IMG/VR virus record: IMGVR_UViG_3300030116_001913 | Location: 1 to 32,611 of that record | DNA: 32,611 nt | Source of the DNA: a virus | Reading direction: 5' to 3' (one strand) | Shown: piece after piece, positions 529-32,568 of the stretch | Layout: every line of letters starts with the position of its first letter | How positions within the stretch are numbered: the first letter of the stretch is position 1 | The notes under the pieces: model-generated | What the model was told of the DNA's origin: nothing | Seen by the model: only the letters and a program-made list of their open reading frames with translations | Database searches by the model: none | Program-made: the position numbers and the translations under genes

Positions 529-2335
529 AAAATTAAGGCGTAGACTTGAAGAAGTAATGGCAACGGCTTTAGCGCCACCACCAGATTTAACGGTTTCACA
601 ATGGGCTGACAACTATAGACAATTATCCAGTGAAAGTTCTGCTGAAGCTGGCCGCTGGTCAACCAGTAGAGCCGAATATCAGCGTGGCATGATGGATGCT
701 GTAAGTGATCCAGATATAGAAAATATCGTATTAATGACGGCTGCACAAATTGGTAAGACTGAGCTAATTAATAATGTTGTGGGTTTTCATATACATCAAG
801 ACCCAGCGCCAATGTTGGTGGTTCAACCCACTTTAGAAATGGCACAAACTTGGTCAAAAGATAGACTTGCTCCAGCTATAAGAGATACACCAGTATTGTC
901 AGAAAAGATAAAAGACCCAAGATCAAGAGATAGCGGCAATACAACTTTGCATAAGGTATTTTCTGGCGGTCACGTTACAGCTTGTGGTGCTAATAGTCCA
1001 AGTTCATTGGCATCTAGACCGTGCCGAATAATATTATGCGATGAGGTTGACAGATACCCAATAAGTGCTGGTACAGAAGGTGATCCAGTATCTTTAGCCC
1101 GTAAAAGGTCAGCCACCTTCTGGAACAGAAAGATTATTATGGTTTCTACTCCTACTGAGAAAAATGCCAGCAGAATAGAAGCGGCTTATGAAAATAGTGA
1201 TAAAAGAAAGTTTTTTGTCGGTTGCAAAGATTGTGGTCATTCGCAAGATTTAAAGTGGTCACAAGTTATTTGGACTGACAATGATCCTAATACAGCAGAA
1301 TATTCTTGCGCTAATTGTGGATCGTTATGGAATGATGCAGCCAGATGGCGAGCTATACGGGCTGGCAAATGGATTAAAACGGCTGAAGGTGATGGCAAAA
1401 CTGCTGGCTTTCATTTGTCAGGAATATATTCACCATGGACGCCACTAGCTGATATAGTCAGGGATTTCTTGCAGTCTAAAAGTGATCCAATGAGATTAAG
1501 AACTTGGATAAACACAACTTTAGGTGAGACATTTGAGGAAGAAGGAGAGGGAGTAGACGAGTTTGATCTATTCCAAAGACGTGAAGATTGGGGCGATAAT
1601 GTGCCTGATGATGTGCTGGTTATTACGTGCGGTGCTGATGTTCAAGATGATCGAATTGCATATGAAGTGGTTGGCTGGACTAGAAACGAAAGCAGTTATT
1701 CACTGGAATATAATGAAATATATGGTGATCCATCCAGTAAACAGCTATGGAAAGACTTTGATGAAATCGTAAGTCAGAAATATTACCATGCTGAATTTGG
1801 TGATATGCCAATTAGAGCAACTATGATTGACAGTGGTGGTCACTTTACCCAAGCCGTTTATAATTATGTGAAGAACAGAACTGGTAAAAGAATATTTGCT
1901 ATCAAGGGTGTTGGTGGTGAGGGTAAGCCAATTATTGGTAGACCGTCAAAAAACAATATTGGTAAAATAAATTTATTTCCTGTTGGTACGGATACGGCAA
2001 AAGAATTAATCTACGCACGTCTGAAAGCTACTGATGATATGGATGGGTATTGTCACTTTCCAACCGATAGGAGTGAAGAATATTTTAGAATGTTGACGGC
2101 TGAAAAGAAGGTAATCCGATACTTTAAGGGTCGGCAAAGACGTGAATGGATCAAGATTAGAACTCGAAATGAAGCCTTAGATTGCCGTGTTTATGCTACG
2201 GCTGGATTTGCTCTTTTAAATATTAACATGGATGCAATTGCCAAACGAGGTAAAAATAGTGTAAAATCGCAACAAGGAACAAATGCAAGGCGTGTATTCA
2301 AGCCGCGTCCGAATAATTTTGTTACAGGATATTAA
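491..2335 (+). CDS. terL: Terminase large subunit (GpA family)
   Basis: This is the ATPase/nuclease motor that cuts and packages phage DNA (614 aa, close to lambda GpA at about 640). Visible parts are a Walker A-like loop TAAQIGKT (residues 83-90), Walker B IILCDEVD (180-187), the coupling motif STPTEKNASR (219-228), and two CxxC pairs at 245-248 and 273-276. Nuclease acidic residues lie in GADVQDDR (381-388) and MIDSGG (445-450), with NEALDCRVYA near 560-569. The start taken is GTG at 491 because the family has about 30 residues before the SQWAD-type motif; an ATG at 557 is the alternative. GpA terminases go with lambda-type cos packaging. Confidence 0.95.
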   Translation: MIWSDTVNKQQSEKLRRRLEEVMATALAPPPDLTVSQWADNYRQLSSESSAEAGRWSTSRAEYQRGMMDAVSDPDIENIVLMTAAQIGKTELINNVVGFHIHQDPAPMLVVQPTLEMAQTWSKDRLAPAIRDTPVLSEKIKDPRSRDSGNTTLHKVFSGGHVTACGANSPSSLASRPCRIILCDEVDRYPISAGTEGDPVSLARKRSATFWNRKIIMVSTPTEKNASRIEAAYENSDKRKFFVGCKDCGHSQDLKWSQVIWTDNDPNTAEYSCANCGSLWNDAARWRAIRAGKWIKTAEGDGKTAGFHLSGIYSPWTPLADIVRDFLQSKSDPMRLRTWINTTLGETFEEEGEGVDEFDLFQRREDWGDNVPDDVLVITCGADVQDDRIAYEVVGWTRNESSYSLEYNEIYGDPSSKQLWKDFDEIVSQKYYHAEFGDMPIRATMIDSGGHFTQAVYNYVKNRTGKRIFAIKGVGGEGKPIIGRPSKNNIGKINLFPVGTDTAKELIYARLKATDDMDGYCHFPTDRSEEYFRMLTAEKKVIRYFKGRQRREWIKIRTRNEALDCRVYATAGFALLNINMDAIAKRGKNSVKSQQGTNARRVFKPRPNNFVTGY

Positions 2336-2338
2336 TTG

Positions 2339-2920
2339 ATGGCTAATTTATTTGACGCGACAAATGCACCAACTGAAATACCTAGAAGCTTTACCGTTGG
2401 TGATTTTGTCCAATGGAAAAACACGACATTAGGCACTGATTACCCAAACACAGCATATACCGTTACATTCCTAGCTAGATCAGCAACTGGCACAGCTAAT
2501 GAATTTAGTGTCACGGCTACAGCGTCTGATGATGATTACCTATTTACAATACTTTCAACTACGTCTGATGATTATAATGAGGGTCATTATCATTACCAGC
2601 TAGAGGTTTTACGTAATAGCGATAGTGCTAGGATTATTGTTGATACGGGTGAAATAGATGTTGAGCCTGATCTAGATGTTTCAAGTGATCCACGCGAACA
2701 CGCTGAAAAGATGCTCAATAAGATTGAAGCTGTATTAGAAAACCGTGCTGACGGTGATTTAAGCAGCTACAGTATTGCTGGACGGTCACTTACTAAAATG
2801 TCACCTGATGAATTATTAACTTGGCGTGATTACTACAGGCGTGAAGTAAAAGCTATAAAACGTAAGATTGATGTAAAGCATGGCCGCAAAACATCATCAA
2901 CTATATTAATGAGGTTCTAA
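2339..2920 (+). CDS. gpW-like head-tail connector with N-terminal Ig-like domain
   Basis: The protein has two parts. Residues 1 to about 110 form a beta-rich, Thr/Ser-rich domain (VGDFVQWK near the start). The last 80 residues are helical and carry SYSIAGRSLTKMSPDELLTWRDYYR, the pattern of lambda gpW-type joining proteins, which are otherwise only about 68 aa. The place between terminase and portal is exactly that of W in lambda. The fused beta domain plus gpW-like tail is an arrangement I recall from alphaproteobacterial phages. ATG at 2339 is preferred over the TTG just before it. Confidence 0.7.
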   Translation: MANLFDATNAPTEIPRSFTVGDFVQWKNTTLGTDYPNTAYTVTFLARSATGTANEFSVTATASDDDYLFTILSTTSDDYNEGHYHYQLEVLRNSDSARIIVDTGEIDVEPDLDVSSDPREHAEKMLNKIEAVLENRADGDLSSYSIAGRSLTKMSPDELLTWRDYYRREVKAIKRKIDVKHGRKTSSTILMRF

Positions 2921-2921
2921 G

Positions 2922-4421
2922 ATGGGCTTGTTTGATTTCCTATTACCACAAAGACAAGCCGATATAGAATTAGTTAAGCGTGGTAGGAAAAGACGTAGAA
3001 GTTACGCTGGAGCTAATCAGGGTAGATTATTTAGTGACTTTATCGGTTCTAGTTCATCAGCAGATAGTGAATTACGTGCAAGCTTGCCCGTTTTACGCAA
3101 TAGAAGCCGTGATTTAGCTAGAAACAATGAGTATGCAAAAAGATTTCTAAACCTAATTAGAACCAATGTAGTCGGTGAAAAGGGTTTCACACTACAGGTT
3201 AGAGCTACAAATGATGATAGATCATTAGACGCTGCTGGTAATACAATCCTAGAAAATGCGTTTAAGGCTTGGGGAAGATTAGGTAATTGTGAAGTAAGTG
3301 GGCGTATGTCTTGGTTGGATTGCCAAAGATATGTTTGTGAGACATTAGCCCGTGATGGTGAAGTATTTATAAAGTTTGTGCAAAATAGGCGATTTAGAGA
3401 CGGTTTTGCATTGCAGTTTATTGAAGCTGAACTGATTGACCAAGATAAAAATGGTAAAGCAGCAAATGGCAACCAGATTAGAATGGGAGTGGAGCTAGAC
3501 GAATATCATAAGCCAGTGGCATATTATGTTCTTACAGCACATCCAAATGATACATTAAATTTTGCGGTGGGTGCTGAACGTAAGCATATTCGAGTACCAG
3601 CAAACGAAATATTACATTTATTTATACAGAACAGGATGCACCAAACTAGAGGTGAGCCGTTTATGTCTCCAGCAATAGCATCACTAAAGATGCTGCATGG
3701 ATATAGAGAAGCTGAGTTAGTTGCTGCTAGGGCAGCGGCTGCTAAGTTTGGTATTATTACCACTCCAGACGGTGATGAATTTGTTGGTGATGATGAAACA
3801 GATGATGAAGTGCCTGTAATTGATATGGCTCCAGCTTCTGTTTATCAGTTACCATCAGGGCATGATTTTAAGATGATTGATCCAGCCCATCCAACTTCTG
3901 CATTTGCCGAATTTGAACAGGCCGTATTACGCGGTATCGCGTCTGGTTTAAACGTATCTTATACAAGCTTATCAAATGATCTAAAGGGTGTTTCTTATAG
4001 TTCTATACGTCAAGGCACTATAGAAGAACGCGATCATTACAAAACATTACAATCATATATAATAGAACACTTTTGTGAGCCAGTATTTAGAAACTGGCTA
4101 GAAAGTGCACTATCGTTTGGTGATATACCGATACCAATATCTAAATATGATAAGTTTGCTGATAACTTACATTTTCGTGGCCGTGGCTTTGCTTGGGTTG
4201 ATCCACAAAGAGAGATAAATGCTCACGTAACAGCATTATCTAACGGTATTGTTAGCATGAATGATATAGCTGCAAATTATGGAAGGGATGTAGAAGAATT
4301 ATTTAGTCAAATAGCATCTGATAAAGAAATGGCTGAAAGATATGGCTTATCGACTGCATTTGAACCATTTGGCGCTAAAGCACCTGTTCAACCAGAAGTG
4401 AGTGACGCAGATGAGTTATAA
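2922..4421 (+). CDS. Portal protein (lambda gpB family)
   Basis: This forms the dodecameric portal at the unique capsid vertex through which DNA is packaged. The protein (499 aa) has the family's basic N-terminus, then SLPVLRNRSRDLARNNEYAKRF (in family style, about residues 54-75) and VVGEKGFTLQ, then ARDGEVFIKF and QFIEAELID. A C-terminal half follows with SYSSIRQGTIEERDHYK and FAWVDPQREI, a strong match to the lambda-type portal pattern. GAGG lies seven bases before the ATG. The gene overlaps the following protease-capsid ORF by about 11 bp. Confidence 0.93.
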   Translation: MGLFDFLLPQRQADIELVKRGRKRRRSYAGANQGRLFSDFIGSSSSADSELRASLPVLRNRSRDLARNNEYAKRFLNLIRTNVVGEKGFTLQVRATNDDRSLDAAGNTILENAFKAWGRLGNCEVSGRMSWLDCQRYVCETLARDGEVFIKFVQNRRFRDGFALQFIEAELIDQDKNGKAANGNQIRMGVELDEYHKPVAYYVLTAHPNDTLNFAVGAERKHIRVPANEILHLFIQNRMHQTRGEPFMSPAIASLKMLHGYREAELVAARAAAAKFGIITTPDGDEFVGDDETDDEVPVIDMAPASVYQLPSGHDFKMIDPAHPTSAFAEFEQAVLRGIASGLNVSYTSLSNDLKGVSYSSIRQGTIEERDHYKTLQSYIIEHFCEPVFRNWLESALSFGDIPIPISKYDKFADNLHFRGRGFAWVDPQREINAHVTALSNGIVSMNDIAANYGRDVEELFSQIASDKEMAERYGLSTAFEPFGAKAPVQPEVSDADEL

Positions 4422-7059
4422 GCCGACTGAAGGAATGGTAACAGAAGCCCAACGCGGTTTAGATTGGCGATCTGAGCATGGTAGAGGTGGTACGGCTGTA
4501 GGAATTGCCCGTGCTAGGGATATTGTTAGTGGTAAAAATTTATCAGAAGATACTGTTTTACGTATGTATTCTTTTTTTAGTCGGCATGAAGTCGACAAGC
4601 AAGCTGAAGGATTTGAGCAAGGTGAAGAAGGCTACCCATCTAACGGGCGTATAGCTTGGGCTTTATGGGGTGGTAATGCTGGTTTCACTTGGTCTAAGAA
4701 TATACGGGATAGAATAAAAAAAGATGAAACTAGGGCTGTAACTGATGCAGTGCGTAAAGGTTTAGCTAAGAAAGCAGAAGATCATAATAAAGATGTTGGT
4801 AATGTTGCGTCTAAACGTACTACCACTAGGACGCTAATATCTGTATTCAATCGCGGTATTGGTGCATATAAGACTAATCCACAAAGCGTAAGACCAAGTG
4901 TTAAATCGCCTGAACAATGGGCTTATGCCCGTGTCAACAGTTATTTATATGCTTTGCGGAATGGTAAATTTAGAAGTGGCAAGCATGACACTGATTTACT
5001 TCCATCAGGTCATCCGATGTCATCAAAGAAAAGGGATGTTACAATGGATGAAAAAAATGATACAATTGATCTAAATGAAAAAGGGTCTGAGCCGATGAAA
5101 AAGCGTCATGTTATAAATATAGAAGAAACTGAAGAAGCTTATATTGTTACTTTTGCCAAGCCTATGGGTGAGCAAACGGAAGCAGAAGCTCCGACAGAAG
5201 AAGAAAGATTTGTACGTGAAGATATGGAAAGACGCGGTCATTACATGGATGAAAAGGCCGTAGATATTGATGAAAGACGTGTAAAAGTCGGTGTATCTAC
5301 AGAAGAACCTGTAGAAAGATCATTTGGAATGGAAGTTATAGACCATTCCCGTGATAGTATGAATTTAGACTTTCTGAATAGTGGTCGCGCTCCATTGTTA
5401 CTTGACCATGACATGGAAAAGCAAATTGGCGTGATTGAAGGAGTTGAACTTGATGAAGATGCTCGTCGTCTACGGGCAATGGTTCGTTTTGGAAAAGGTG
5501 GACTAGCTTCAGAAGTGTTCAATGATGTTACTGATGGCATCAGACAAAACATCAGTGTAGGCTATCGAATTGATGGCCGAATAAAACGTGATGATGATCC
5601 TGAAGAATACTACAGGGTTGCCACCACACCAATGGAAATTAGTATTGTTAGTGTACCAGCGGATCAGTCAAGTCTTGTTGGTGTCGGGCGATCAGTTCCA
5701 GCAGAACCCTTAACTCAAACATCTGAAGGAGATGAAGTTATGACTGAAGAAGTCAAAAACGACATTGATCTTGACGCGGTTAAAGCTGATGCAGTTCGAG
5801 CCGCAAGAAAGAACGATGCTGAAATCTTGGCACTAGCAGCCAAGCATAATAAACGCGACTTAGGTAATGAAGCAATTGCAAGCGGTATGTCAGTAGACCA
5901 ATTCCGTGGTAATTTGCTTGATGCTATTGGTGATAAGCCACTAGACATTGCACCAGCACAAGTTGACGCTCCAGTAAAAGAGCAAAAAAGCTATTCTCTT
6001 GGTAGAATGATCCAAGCTCAAATTACTGGTGATTGGCGTAAGGCTGGGTACGAGCGTGAAATCAATGATGAAATAGCCACACGTGTTGGCCGCGATGCAG
6101 AAGGTGTTTATGTACCTGATTTTGCATGGGGGCAACGAGGGCCATTATCAACAGCAGCGACTGGCGGTTCAAGTGCAGAAGTTGTATTTGATGATTTTGT
6201 ACCAACTGAACACCGTGGTGATATGTTCATTGAGGCGCTACGTGCTAGACAAGTTCTAGGCGGTCTAGGAACAACTTACCTAAGTGGTCTAACCAACAGA
6301 ATTAAAATGCCAAAACTAGCAACTGGCGCTAATGCTGCATTTGTAGAAGAATTAGCAGATGTTGGCGATGGTGCTGGAACAGACGGTGGTGTTACATTGC
6401 AGCCAAGAACAATGGGTGCATTTGTTGATATGTCACGTTTGTTAATGTTGGAGAGTGTGCCAGCTATTGAGCAAATAATCAGAAATGATTTACTTGCTTC
6501 AGCAGCCGACAGAACTGAATTTTATGCAATTCAAGGTTCTGGTTCTGGTGGCCAGCCAACAGGTATTTTGAACACATCTGGCGTAAATGATCTAGACATT
6601 TCATCAGGTACTGATGTTGATAGCCTTACATGGGCTGACATTATCAACCTAGTGAAGTTGGTTGAAGAAGATAATGGGATAGTCAATGGCAATGCTGCTG
6701 GCTTCTTATCACACCCAGCAGTTAAAGCTAAACTAGCTTCAACAGCTAAAGTATCTTCAACTGATAGTGTTATGATCTTGAATGACCCGTGGAATAACCT
6801 TTATGGCTATCCAATGGGTTTCACATCAAACGTACCAACAACACTAGATCCAGGCGATGGTGGTAATGACGCTTCAGCATTGATCTTTGGTGACTTTAGC
6901 CAATTGATGATTGCTCAGTTTGGCGCTCCAAGCATCCTAGTCGATCCATACAGTGGTTCAAAAGCTGGAACTGTGAGAATGGTTCTACACGCTGAACTAG
7001 ACGTAGGTGTAAGAAACGCTGTAAGCTTTGGTATCACTAATGAGGTATCAGTAGCTTAA
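4411..7059 (+). CDS. Fusion: unknown N-terminal domain + prohead protease + major capsid protein
   Basis: One unbroken frame (882 aa) joins three modules. The N-terminus (to about residue 200, YKPTEGMVTEAQRGLDW to GKHDTDLLPSGHP) is a domain I recall in phage head genes but cannot name. About residues 280-440 are an HK97-type prohead protease: LLLDHD holds the likely catalytic His, NISVGY the Ser, and MEISIVSVPADQ the typical end. From about 444 the protein is an HK97-fold capsid protein with a charged helical delta-type N-terminus, then GGLGTTYLSG, MGAFVDMSRL and IIRNDLLASAADRTEFYAIQGSG. GTG at 4402 is another start. In-frame ATGs at 5044 and 5740 have Shine-Dalgarno sites, so protease and capsid may also be made separately. 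Confidence 0.88.
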   Translation: MSYKPTEGMVTEAQRGLDWRSEHGRGGTAVGIARARDIVSGKNLSEDTVLRMYSFFSRHEVDKQAEGFEQGEEGYPSNGRIAWALWGGNAGFTWSKNIRDRIKKDETRAVTDAVRKGLAKKAEDHNKDVGNVASKRTTTRTLISVFNRGIGAYKTNPQSVRPSVKSPEQWAYARVNSYLYALRNGKFRSGKHDTDLLPSGHPMSSKKRDVTMDEKNDTIDLNEKGSEPMKKRHVINIEETEEAYIVTFAKPMGEQTEAEAPTEEERFVREDMERRGHYMDEKAVDIDERRVKVGVSTEEPVERSFGMEVIDHSRDSMNLDFLNSGRAPLLLDHDMEKQIGVIEGVELDEDARRLRAMVRFGKGGLASEVFNDVTDGIRQNISVGYRIDGRIKRDDDPEEYYRVATTPMEISIVSVPADQSSLVGVGRSVPAEPLTQTSEGDEVMTEEVKNDIDLDAVKADAVRAARKNDAEILALAAKHNKRDLGNEAIASGMSVDQFRGNLLDAIGDKPLDIAPAQVDAPVKEQKSYSLGRMIQAQITGDWRKAGYEREINDEIATRVGRDAEGVYVPDFAWGQRGPLSTAATGGSSAEVVFDDFVPTEHRGDMFIEALRARQVLGGLGTTYLSGLTNRIKMPKLATGANAAFVEELADVGDGAGTDGGVTLQPRTMGAFVDMSRLLMLESVPAIEQIIRNDLLASAADRTEFYAIQGSGSGGQPTGILNTSGVNDLDISSGTDVDSLTWADIINLVKLVEEDNGIVNGNAAGFLSHPAVKAKLASTAKVSSTDSVMILNDPWNNLYGYPMGFTSNVPTTLDPGDGGNDASALIFGDFSQLMIAQFGAPSILVDPYSGSKAGTVRMVLHAELDVGVRNAVSFGITNEVSVA
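5726..5742 (+). promoter_or_regulatory. Internal ribosome-binding site and start for the capsid protein
   Basis: AAGGAG at 5726-5731 lies eight bases before an in-frame ATG at 5740, exactly at the join between protease and capsid modules. Translation from there would give a 439-aa capsid precursor (MTEEVKNDIDLD...). This spacing and match are as good as any true start in the genome. It suggests capsid subunits are made in excess over the full fusion. Confidence 0.6.
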
Positions 7060-24866: not shown

Positions 24867-25862
24867 TTACATAGTCTCTTTTATTGTCAACCCAATACGC
24901 ATTGCTATCTGAGGAACAATTGCGTTACCTAATCCTTTAAGTCGGTGTATCCTATCTCGTACCCCATGAGCCACTCTACCCACGCTGGGTTCAGGCTCCC
25001 AGAAACTTCCGACACTACTCCCAACTGAGTGTTCTGCCTCTCGCTCCGATACAAATTCATGTTCTCTCCACTGTCCTTGTAGTCTCTCGCTGTCGGTGTC
25101 GGCCACATTGATCTTGCCACCTCGCTCTCCAAATTCGGAAACTTGTCCTTCACTCTGTTGTGTATGTTCTCTGCCGACATCGCTGAACAAGCTCTGGGTG
25201 TTGGCCACATTTGTGGTGCTTGCGCTTTCTCCCAAGCCTCCACTGTCTCTGGATTGACTTGCTCTCTCAGATTGCTTGGCCTTGTTCTGCCTTTGCGAGT
25301 TGTGTTTGCTTGCCTCTCTAACGCTTCCTTTGATCGTTGCGGTAGATGATCCATCGTGTTTGGTGTTGCCCACATTTCTACAGATGATCCAGAGTCTGTC
25401 TCTTCTGTGAGGTGCGTCAACGGCACAAGCTGGAACAATGAACGGCCTTGCGGCGTAGCTTTCCCCTTCCAAGTCAGATAACACTTCGTCGAGGCCCATA
25501 GAGACGTGCCCATAAACATTCTCGAAAACGCACCAAGAGGGTCGCTTTCTTTGAACAATGGAAAATATGTACGGCCAGATATGTCGGTCATCTTCACTGC
25601 CTCTTCGCTTCCCGGCTTGTGAAAATGGTTGGCATGGGTATCCGGCTGTGAGGATGTCGCAGTCTGGAACAAGTCCATCTGGGTCATTAGCTAACTCCTT
25701 TACATCGTCTGCAATTGGCACGTCTGGCCAATGCTTTGCTAATATCTGTCTACTCCACGGCTCTATGTCGCAAAATAACACTGGTTTACTTAGTTTAGCC
25801 CATTCAAAGCCTAGCGCAAAGCCGCCAATACCAGAGCATAAATCTACGTGTCTGAGAGTCAT
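24867..25862 (-). CDS. C5 cytosine DNA methyltransferase
   Basis: This enzyme would methylate cytosine at C5, using S-adenosylmethionine, to mark phage DNA or resist host restriction. Motifs in order are DLCSGIGGF (7-15, motif I), GYPCQPFSQAG (74-84, motif IV with catalytic Cys77), CVFENV (111-116, motif VI), RRDRLWII (153-160, motif VIII), and GLGNAIVPQIA near residues 310-320 (motif X). Residues about 165-290, the target recognition region, are unusually rich in Ser, Arg, Glu and Gln and repeat NV[AG][ND]T three times. The same DNA is read in another frame (see 24929-25687). It overlaps the upstream 70-aa gene by four bases (ATGA). Confidence 0.93.
   Translation of the reverse strand: MTLRHVDLCSGIGGFALGFEWAKLSKPVLFCDIEPWSRQILAKHWPDVPIADDVKELANDPDGLVPDCDILTAGYPCQPFSQAGKRRGSEDDRHIWPYIFSIVQRKRPSWCVFENVYGHVSMGLDEVLSDLEGESYAARPFIVPACAVDAPHRRDRLWIICRNVGNTKHDGSSTATIKGSVREASKHNSQRQNKAKQSERASQSRDSGGLGESASTTNVANTQSLFSDVGREHTQQSEGQVSEFGERGGKINVADTDSERLQGQWREHEFVSEREAEHSVGSSVGSFWEPEPSVGRVAHGVRDRIHRLKGLGNAIVPQIAMRIGLTIKETM
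24929..25687 (-). CDS. Overprinted protein nested within the methyltransferase gene
   Basis: A 252-aa frame lies wholly inside the methyltransferase gene, read in the +1 frame on the same strand. Its start has AAGGAG (25695-25700) seven bases before the ATG. The protein has three W[AP]TP motifs (MWATPNTMDH, MWPTPRACSA, MWPTPTARDYKDSG) and ends with SLNPAWVEWLMGYEIGYTDL. I recall the LNP-x-[WF]-VEWLMG end and WPTP repeats from many phage proteins, often labelled as methyltransferase-related or hypothetical. Function is unknown. Length, ribosome site and recalled conservation argue it is expressed. A few alternative ATGs exist, but this start fits best. Confidence 0.75.
   Translation of the reverse strand: MTQMDLFQTATSSQPDTHANHFHKPGSEEAVKMTDISGRTYFPLFKESDPLGAFSRMFMGTSLWASTKCYLTWKGKATPQGRSLFQLVPLTHLTEETDSGSSVEMWATPNTMDHLPQRSKEALERQANTTRKGRTRPSNLREQVNPETVEAWEKAQAPQMWPTPRACSAMSAENIHNRVKDKFPNLESEVARSMWPTPTARDYKDSGENMNLYRSERQNTQLGVVSEVSGSLNPAWVEWLMGYEIGYTDLKD
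25695..25700 (-). promoter_or_regulatory. Ribosome-binding site of the nested ORF
   Basis: On the minus strand, AAGGAG is followed by TTAGCTA and then ATG (25687-25685). It lies inside the methyltransferase codons for Lys55-Glu56. This is a full Shine-Dalgarno at the best spacing, stronger than that of the methyltransferase itself, which shows none clearly and probably relies on coupling. Confidence 0.7.
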
Positions 25863-26071
25863 GGTCTAGGCATAGGCTTTACAAGCTCATTAGAAGCGTG
25901 TGCAGTACCCTTGCAATGAATTAGCACTGCATCATGGTGTTGTTCCATTATGTCGAACATGGCGCTCTTGGAGTAGCTACAGGCGTCATAGCTGGGAAAT
26001 AGTATTTGATGTGTCAGTGGTTCACCTTGCACAAAATAAGTTAGAACCATGAAGGTGTAGTATTTAATCAT
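25859..26071 (-). CDS. Small Cys-pair protein with hydrophobic N-terminus, second copy
   Basis: A 70-aa protein. It starts MIKYYTFMVLTYFVQGEPLT, then YDACSYSKSAMFDIM and VLIHCKGT, with cysteines at 31 and 53. It shares layout with the 53-aa protein at 23078-23239: hydrophobic start, Gly-Glu, a Ser-Tyr/Tyr-Ser turn before the first Cys, then a helix and a second Cys in a beta strand. The stop overlaps the methyltransferase start (ATGA), so the two are probably coupled. Possible exported protein; function unknown. Confidence 0.55.
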   Translation of the reverse strand: MIKYYTFMVLTYFVQGEPLTHQILFPSYDACSYSKSAMFDIMEQHHDAVLIHCKGTAHASNELVKPMPRP

Positions 26072-31848: not shown

Positions 31849-32568
31849 ATGGTAATGTCATTTAAGTTCACATCTAATTCAAAGATAGTAAATGCTAAAA
31901 TGTCTAACATGGTGGCTCGACAAACACCGTTTGCGATTTCCCGTGCATTAAATGAAAGTGCAAAGACATTAATCAAGAAAAATAAACAAGATATGCAAAT
32001 GATCTTTGATAGACCCGTGGCGTTTACCTTAAATGCTTTCTTCTTCCGATTTGCGAAAAAGGGGCAAACATCCGTCAAGATTAGGCGTAAAGATAAAGCA
32101 GTCGGTAAGCACTATCTAGAAGTTCAGGAAGATGGTGGACTGAGGCCACAAACAGGAATGGAAAAAGCTTTTGCAATGAACTTACCATACTCAGGATTAT
32201 TACAGCATCTTGTACCAACTAAAGCAGCACCATTGAATAAGGCTGGTAATATGTCACAAGGCTTCAGAAATAAAATGATGTCAGCTATGCAAGTGGCGCG
32301 TGATCCACAAATGCGTAGTCGCAGCAAAGGAAAACAATTCTTTGTACCAGCAGAGACACACCCATTGGGTCAAGGACGTAGGGCTGGTGTTTATATGCGA
32401 ACTAGTGCTGGAAATGCAAAGAAGATGTTAAACTTCATACCAAACAGGATTAGTTACACACCAAGATTGAAATTTGAACAGCGTATGAACAAGTATGCAA
32501 GGATAATTTATCCAAAGAAGCTAAAGGCGGCAATGAGATATGCTCTGGCAACTGCTAAATTACGATAA
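31849..32568 (+). CDS. Conserved phage virion-type protein
   Basis: A 239-aa basic protein. ISRALNESAKTLIKKNKQDM, then FDRPVAFTLNAFFFRFAKKG, KHYLEVQEDGGLRPQTGMEK and a Lys/Arg-rich C-terminus (KFEQRMNKYARIIYPKKLKA). I recall the ALN...FDRPT/V-FTL pattern from phage proteins of the morphogenesis region, role unproven. Its site just before the genome end, hence next to terminase on a circle, fits a structural or DNA-associated virion protein. AGGG lies about seven bases before the ATG. Confidence 0.6.
   Translation: MVMSFKFTSNSKIVNAKMSNMVARQTPFAISRALNESAKTLIKKNKQDMQMIFDRPVAFTLNAFFFRFAKKGQTSVKIRRKDKAVGKHYLEVQEDGGLRPQTGMEKAFAMNLPYSGLLQHLVPTKAAPLNKAGNMSQGFRNKMMSAMQVARDPQMRSRSKGKQFFVPAETHPLGQGRRAGVYMRTSAGNAKKMLNFIPNRISYTPRLKFEQRMNKYARIIYPKKLKAAMRYALATAKLR

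Follow-up and report, generated by a model that had tools for sequence, protein, structure and literature searches.

M.EcoHK31I and M.EaeI are two-polypeptide C5 DNA methyltransferases (C5-MTases) for the sequence YGGCCR, and the M.EcoHK31I gene for the large polypeptide contains, in an alternative frame, the coding sequence of the small one. According to PMC3404938, the large subunit of M.EcoHK31I contains motifs I–VIII and X and the small subunit contains motif IX (citing Lee, Kam and Shaw 1995), and the predicted recognition domain (TRD) is placed in the large subunit. M.AquI is also a two-polypeptide C5-MTase, in which the catalytic and recognition halves are on separate chains (PMC3404938). 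In addition, the ShiLan element, an out-of-frame HNH endonuclease inside mycobacteriophage methylases, is a mobile insertion with a patchy distribution (PMC11855218).

Here we describe a C5-MTase gene in a window of 32,611 nucleotides (the whole stretch of viral DNA that was analyzed, positions 1 to 32,611 of IMG/VR record IMGVR_UViG_3300030116_001913). The gene encodes a frame-0 protein, alpha, and a second protein, beta, in a nested +1 frame. The division of motifs between alpha and beta is like that of M.EcoHK31I and M.EaeI, as compared by description, and our analysis indicates that the locus most likely belongs to the M.EcoHK31I kind, which is known but rare; its distribution is wider than expected, and the recognition function is assigned more sharply. 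Several differences are evident. M.EcoHK31I is part of a restriction-modification system, whereas no restriction enzyme was recognized beside the phage gene among the neighbouring ORFs examined. For M.EcoHK31I, PMC3404938 assigns the predicted TRD to the large subunit, whereas constraint places the putative TRD of the phage locus in beta. By comparison, the small subunit of M.AquI contains motif IX, motif X and the distal TRD, whereas motif X stays in alpha here and an AquI-like arrangement occurs only in one locus, L250.

Elsewhere in the window, a single 885-aa ORF (positions 4402–7059) matches families of both the head maturation protease and the major head protein and is, by these matches, a protease–capsid fusion. 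A minor tail protein gene (31849–32568) adjoins replication genes at the window end, which suggests a circularly permuted or fragmentary record.

The nested frame and selection on both frames

The alpha ORF encodes 331 aa (24867–25862, minus strand) and would provide the catalytic subunit with motifs I–VIII and X. The beta ORF, which encodes 252 aa from an ATG start (24929–25687, minus strand) and would provide the TRD and motif IX, lies wholly within it at an offset of 175 nt, placing it in the +1 frame; these coordinates agree with the first-pass annotation, which had reported a 252-codon +1 frame wholly inside the MTase gene on the same strand. The Shine–Dalgarno sequence AAGGAG that it had read from the sequence seven bases before the beta ATG is confirmed at 25695–25700 on the minus strand, and the beta stop codon TAG (24929–24931, minus strand) spans Leu311 and Gly312 of alpha (TTA/GGT). 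Beta contains the three W[AP]TP motifs described earlier, whereas the C-terminus then quoted had omitted the final KD, the true end being SLNPAWVEWLMGYEIGYTDLKD.

Synonymous codons were permuted with the MTase protein fixed, and a +1 frame of 253 open codons appeared in 0 of 20,000 trials (null mean 81 codons, maximum 236), which rejects beta as a chance ORF. The +2 frame is ordinary (38 codons versus a null mean of 45). The +1 frame is a real, strongly selected gene, far above chance. Furthermore, a Shine–Dalgarno sequence of at least 6 nt precedes the beta start in 48% of relatives, as compared with 8% after synonymous shuffling.

Synonymous constraint was compared in both frames. Alpha 4-fold divergence, counted at sites with identical amino acids, is 0.59–0.66 upstream of beta, 0.32–0.40 over motifs IV–VIII, 0.35–0.41 in the variable region and 0.03–0.04 in the motif IX region, and reaches 0.67–0.69 after the beta stop; the sequence pairs are not phylogenetically independent, and these divergences are effect sizes rather than p-values. 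For MTase pairs at 60–75% identity, the corresponding values are 0.59, 0.32, 0.35, 0.03 and 0.67, respectively. Alpha sites are constrained inside beta, with a step precisely at its stop codon: in 92 relatives compared codon by codon, the divergence stays at about 0 as far as the beta stop, whereas the first 4-fold codon beyond it shows 0.67, and the third base of the alpha leucine overlapping the TAG never varies. Against ascertainment bias, 40 loci were collected by MTase peptides only; their 4-fold divergence is 0.25 inside beta versus 0.59 and 0.64 outside, and a broken +1 frame was found in none of the MTase-ascertained loci.

The reciprocal test at beta-synonymous sites gives a divergence of 0.59–0.64 in the variable region, which is the level of the free flanks and therefore indicates that frame 0 is free there, and 0.19–0.32 over motifs IV–VIII. 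Frame 0 is constrained over motifs IV–VIII, and in the recognition region the alpha frame is close to unconstrained while the +1 frame is under selection. Both frames are thus selected, with selection in the variable region acting on beta, and together with the shuffles this bears out the earlier view of a true overprinted pair.

These results bear on whether the +1 frame could be kept open passively, by codon bias or an RNA element without translation, an explanation to which we give virtually no credence. The GC3 of the MTase gene is higher than in neighbouring genes, which would leave fewer stops, but none of the 20,000 shuffles reproduced the frame, and the substitution pattern is position-specific and steps at the beta stop. 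In addition, the mean +1 open fraction is 0.19 (0.11–0.27) in ordinary C5-MTases of the same genomes versus 0.79 in beta-bearing ones.

Distribution of the nested frame

Beta matches phrog_1008 over residues 4–250 (E = 2e-29), a full-length profile match, and alpha matches phrog_363, these being the beta and alpha families, respectively. A tblastn search against phages returned 72 records. The first eight regions inspected, whose hosts are Paenibacillus, Lacticaseibacillus, Escherichia, Erwinia, Bacteroides and a cyanobacterium (two are without a stated host), all contain a +1 frame of 192–373 codons nested in an MTase. The locus sets were then drawn from six scans of viral contigs plus one in which bacterial and archaeal genomes were searched. 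The beta family occupies the +1 frame of an MTase in 296 of 296 loci in one set and 190 of 194 in another, matching the alternative-frame coding of M.EcoHK31I. Three of the other four are contig-end or very short matches, and the fourth is a longer +1 ORF that begins inside the MTase and extends beyond its end. The bacterial set contains 79 nested betas out of 80, the exception being L250, and seven more divergent phage MTases (from Mycobacterium, Acinetobacter, Synechococcus and others) also have beta.

No stand-alone beta homologue was found in the viral and bacterial loci (about 490 in total, not deduplicated). The first-pass annotation had described beta-like proteins as frequent stand-alone genes of phages; each copy recovered is instead nested in the +1 frame of a C5-MTase, and separate beta annotations result from annotators choosing one frame. 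Nested betas are annotated in E. coli phage K1ind2 (ORF28, Mte8-like) and Paenibacillus phage Bloom (BLOOM_57), whose records state only "DNA methyltransferase" or "Mte8-like" and mention neither overprinting nor a subunit role. The MTase of an E. coli ST361 prophage (locus L550, 2863–4032) is called by PGAP as two incomplete pseudogene pieces; its frame 0 (404 codons) and +1 frame (343 codons) are both open throughout the region. In locus L381 (2459–3934), the beta frame runs without a stop beyond the MTase end into sequence resembling an MT-A70-type N6-adenine methyltransferase, a possible beta–adenine MTase fusion.

Like the ShiLan element, beta is an alternative-frame ORF in a phage methylase, but it overlaps the MTase's own conserved motifs. 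An HNH insertion element was rejected as an identity for beta: 0 of 121 betas have a Pfam HNH match, there is no insertion, and the overlap spans MTase motifs in all loci.

Ordinary and beta-bearing MTases occur together in 16 bacterial genomes. In these, MTases with a PF00145 match that reaches the end of the profile are without a real beta (the single candidate, at 23 bits, is short and interrupted by stops, comparable to passive similarity), whereas those whose PF00145 match stops near 165–230 do have beta.

Division of MTase motifs between alpha and beta

The match of alpha to PF00145 (E = 4e-36; 125 bits versus a curated cut-off of 22) covers only residues 4–201, and its alignment to ordinary MTases covers motifs I–VIII only. 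The catalytic residues are invariant in 103 relatives, and PCQ, ENV, RxR and GNA are invariant or nearly so. The putative catalytic domain with motifs I–VIII (residues 1–168; 25359–25862, minus strand) is predicted with pLDDT mostly above 90, and 169 residues of alpha can be aligned to M.HhaI (E = 8e-13). The domain is followed, where a TRD would be expected, by a predicted disordered linker (residues 169–287; 25002–25358, minus strand) that coincides with the near-neutral stretch of frame 0; in the AlphaFold model, residues 169–295 are without secondary structure and pLDDT is mostly below 50. Motif X, GNAIVPQIAMRIG (residues 312–324; 24891–24929, minus strand), is conserved in frame 0 directly after the beta stop. 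A motif IX-like string was found in frame 0 of 0 of 293 alphas. At the other end of the gene, a 70-aa minus-strand ORF (25859–26071) has a stop that overlaps the alpha start (25862), which suggests translational coupling.

Motif IX, absent from alpha, lies in beta. It is LNPAWVEWLMGYEIGYTDL (residues 232–250; 24938–24994, minus strand), located by profile alignment to motif IX of ordinary C5-MTases. The whole-profile hhalign result against ordinary MTases falls at motif IX but is weak (probability 1%, E = 0.057), and we therefore used the C-terminal profile with column-shuffle controls. For the C-terminus LNPxWVEWLMGFPxGWTDL, the alignment to RRLTPRECARLMGFDDDF, motif IX of ordinary MTases, scores 21.2 (P = 0.0017); its LNPxWVEWLMGFP resembles LTPRECARLMGFDDDF, and there is no comparable match of the C-terminal profile in alpha. 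None of 300 column-shuffled C-terminal profiles reaches 21.2 (maximum 17.7), and only one lands at motif IX. The similarity is short and its standard hhalign probability low (15.5% for the C-terminal profile), so that the assignment is based on the shuffle control and on position: the nested LNP sits at a fixed 21.7 codons before motif X, the place of motif IX, as compared with a gap of about 29 in ordinary MTases.

The variable region of beta with the three W[AP]TP modules (residues 106–230; 24998–25372, minus strand) is the proposed TRD. We assign the TRD to beta because the corresponding frame-0 region is predicted to be disordered and evolves freely. The AlphaFold model of whole beta is only partly confident (pLDDT 68, pTM 0.41), with a pLDDT of about 90 for the first W[AP]TP module. 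Betas with N-termini just 21–42% identical can contain near-identical modules; loci L039 and L043 share a module at 98% over 53 aa with N-termini at 42%, and L034 and L035 share a module at different positions. Some other pairs with a common module (L106), whose N-termini are truncated, were set aside. The exchange of modules resembles TRD shuffling. Taken together, the C-terminal half of beta is most likely a displaced MTase recognition domain with motif IX.

We also considered whether beta could be a real overprinted protein that is no part of an MTase, for instance an anti-restriction or regulatory protein sharing the DNA. Overprinted viral genes are often accessory, beta is without a catalytic motif, and no solved structure was matched in a Foldseek search against the PDB (best E = 0.8); sequence searches of Pfam, NCBIfam and the PDB were empty. 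Against viral models, Foldseek gave matches below E = 0.001 in only three cases, including one to a protein named as a phage methyltransferase. We nevertheless consider this explanation unlikely, as the motif IX at the end of beta lies at the very place where alpha is without it, and beta occurs only with TRD-less MTases and never as a stand-alone gene in the loci collected. The L250 +1 frame points the same way by carrying motif X as well. In this locus (2265–3565, Bacillota MAG), alpha comes to an end shortly past motif VIII, frame 0 is interrupted by many stops across the TRD, and a single +1 ORF takes in the putative TRD together with motifs IX and X. From its sequence, L250 is an AquI-like split, a rearranged form of the overlapping pair that retains the TRD in +1 only, in a single MAG contig with a possible assembly error at the C-terminal junction.

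Beta as a catalytic protein in itself was rejected, as no invariant residue suggests an active site and Pfam gives nothing.

A single fused enzyme would arise if ribosomes shifted from frame 0 to +1 after motif VIII, joining the TRD and motif IX to motifs I–VIII in the usual order on one chain. This seems to us very unlikely: conservation of the +1 frame extends about 100 codons back from the motif VIII end, a stretch that such a shift would leave unused, beta has its own start with a Shine–Dalgarno sequence enriched over the null, and motif X would require a second shift back.

A probable two-subunit C5-MTase in overlapping frames

Because motif IX is in beta and the variable region is constrained only in the +1 frame, the locus is very probably a two-subunit C5 DNA methyltransferase encoded in two overlapping frames, a reading drawn from sequence, structure models and analogy. 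In this two-subunit enzyme, frame 0 would give alpha, an AdoMet-binding and catalytic domain (motifs I–VIII and X) with an unconstrained linker replacing the TRD and motif IX. The +1 frame, with its own ribosome site, would give beta, comprising an N-terminal part over motifs IV–VIII, the TRD modules and then motif IX. Docked on alpha in trans, beta may stand in for the absent small domain, select the DNA site and so make the enzyme active. Translation of the pair, its assembly, a joint requirement for methylation and recognition by beta are what we infer, M.EcoHK31I providing the biochemical precedent. The earlier suggestion that the second protein may act with the MTase is probably right.

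As to origin, motif IX and the TRD would be ancestral parts now in +1, with motifs I–VIII and X ancestral in frame 0, which a pair of compensating shifts would explain. The TRD–IX block of a single-frame MTase would have been shifted to +1, leaving alpha with an overprinted linker and giving beta an N-terminus overprinted on motifs IV–VIII. The first-pass annotation had placed the birth of the second frame inside the recognition region; our evidence refines this, the C-terminal half most likely being the MTase's own TRD, displaced together with motif IX, and the N-terminal half being overprinted on catalytic motifs IV–VIII.

More broadly, and with somewhat less than even confidence, we propose a class of phage and prophage C5-MTases in many bacterial phyla in which the recognition subunit lies in +1, having arisen by double-shift reciprocal overprinting, with hidden-frame modules that are shuffled among phages, so that foreign beta modules may retarget a given alpha. 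What appears to be new is the ubiquity in phage and prophage MTases of many phyla, the evidence for a TRD, and not motif IX alone, in the hidden frame and the reciprocal-overprint origin; an earlier account of the general pattern was not found in the literature searched, the original EcoHK31I paper being outside that search.

As an example of long double coding on one strand the locus is very strong: each region reveals the frame on which selection acts, frame 0 in the catalytic motifs and +1 in the recognition domain, and the emergence of overlapping genes can thereby be tested. In their present annotation, hundreds of orphan phage cytosine methyltransferases probably represent only half of an enzyme. 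Codon-optimized cloning of the annotated MTase would silently remove the specificity subunit, which could explain inactive clones. If the beta modules set specificity, the methylation targets of phages would be predictable from the hidden frame.
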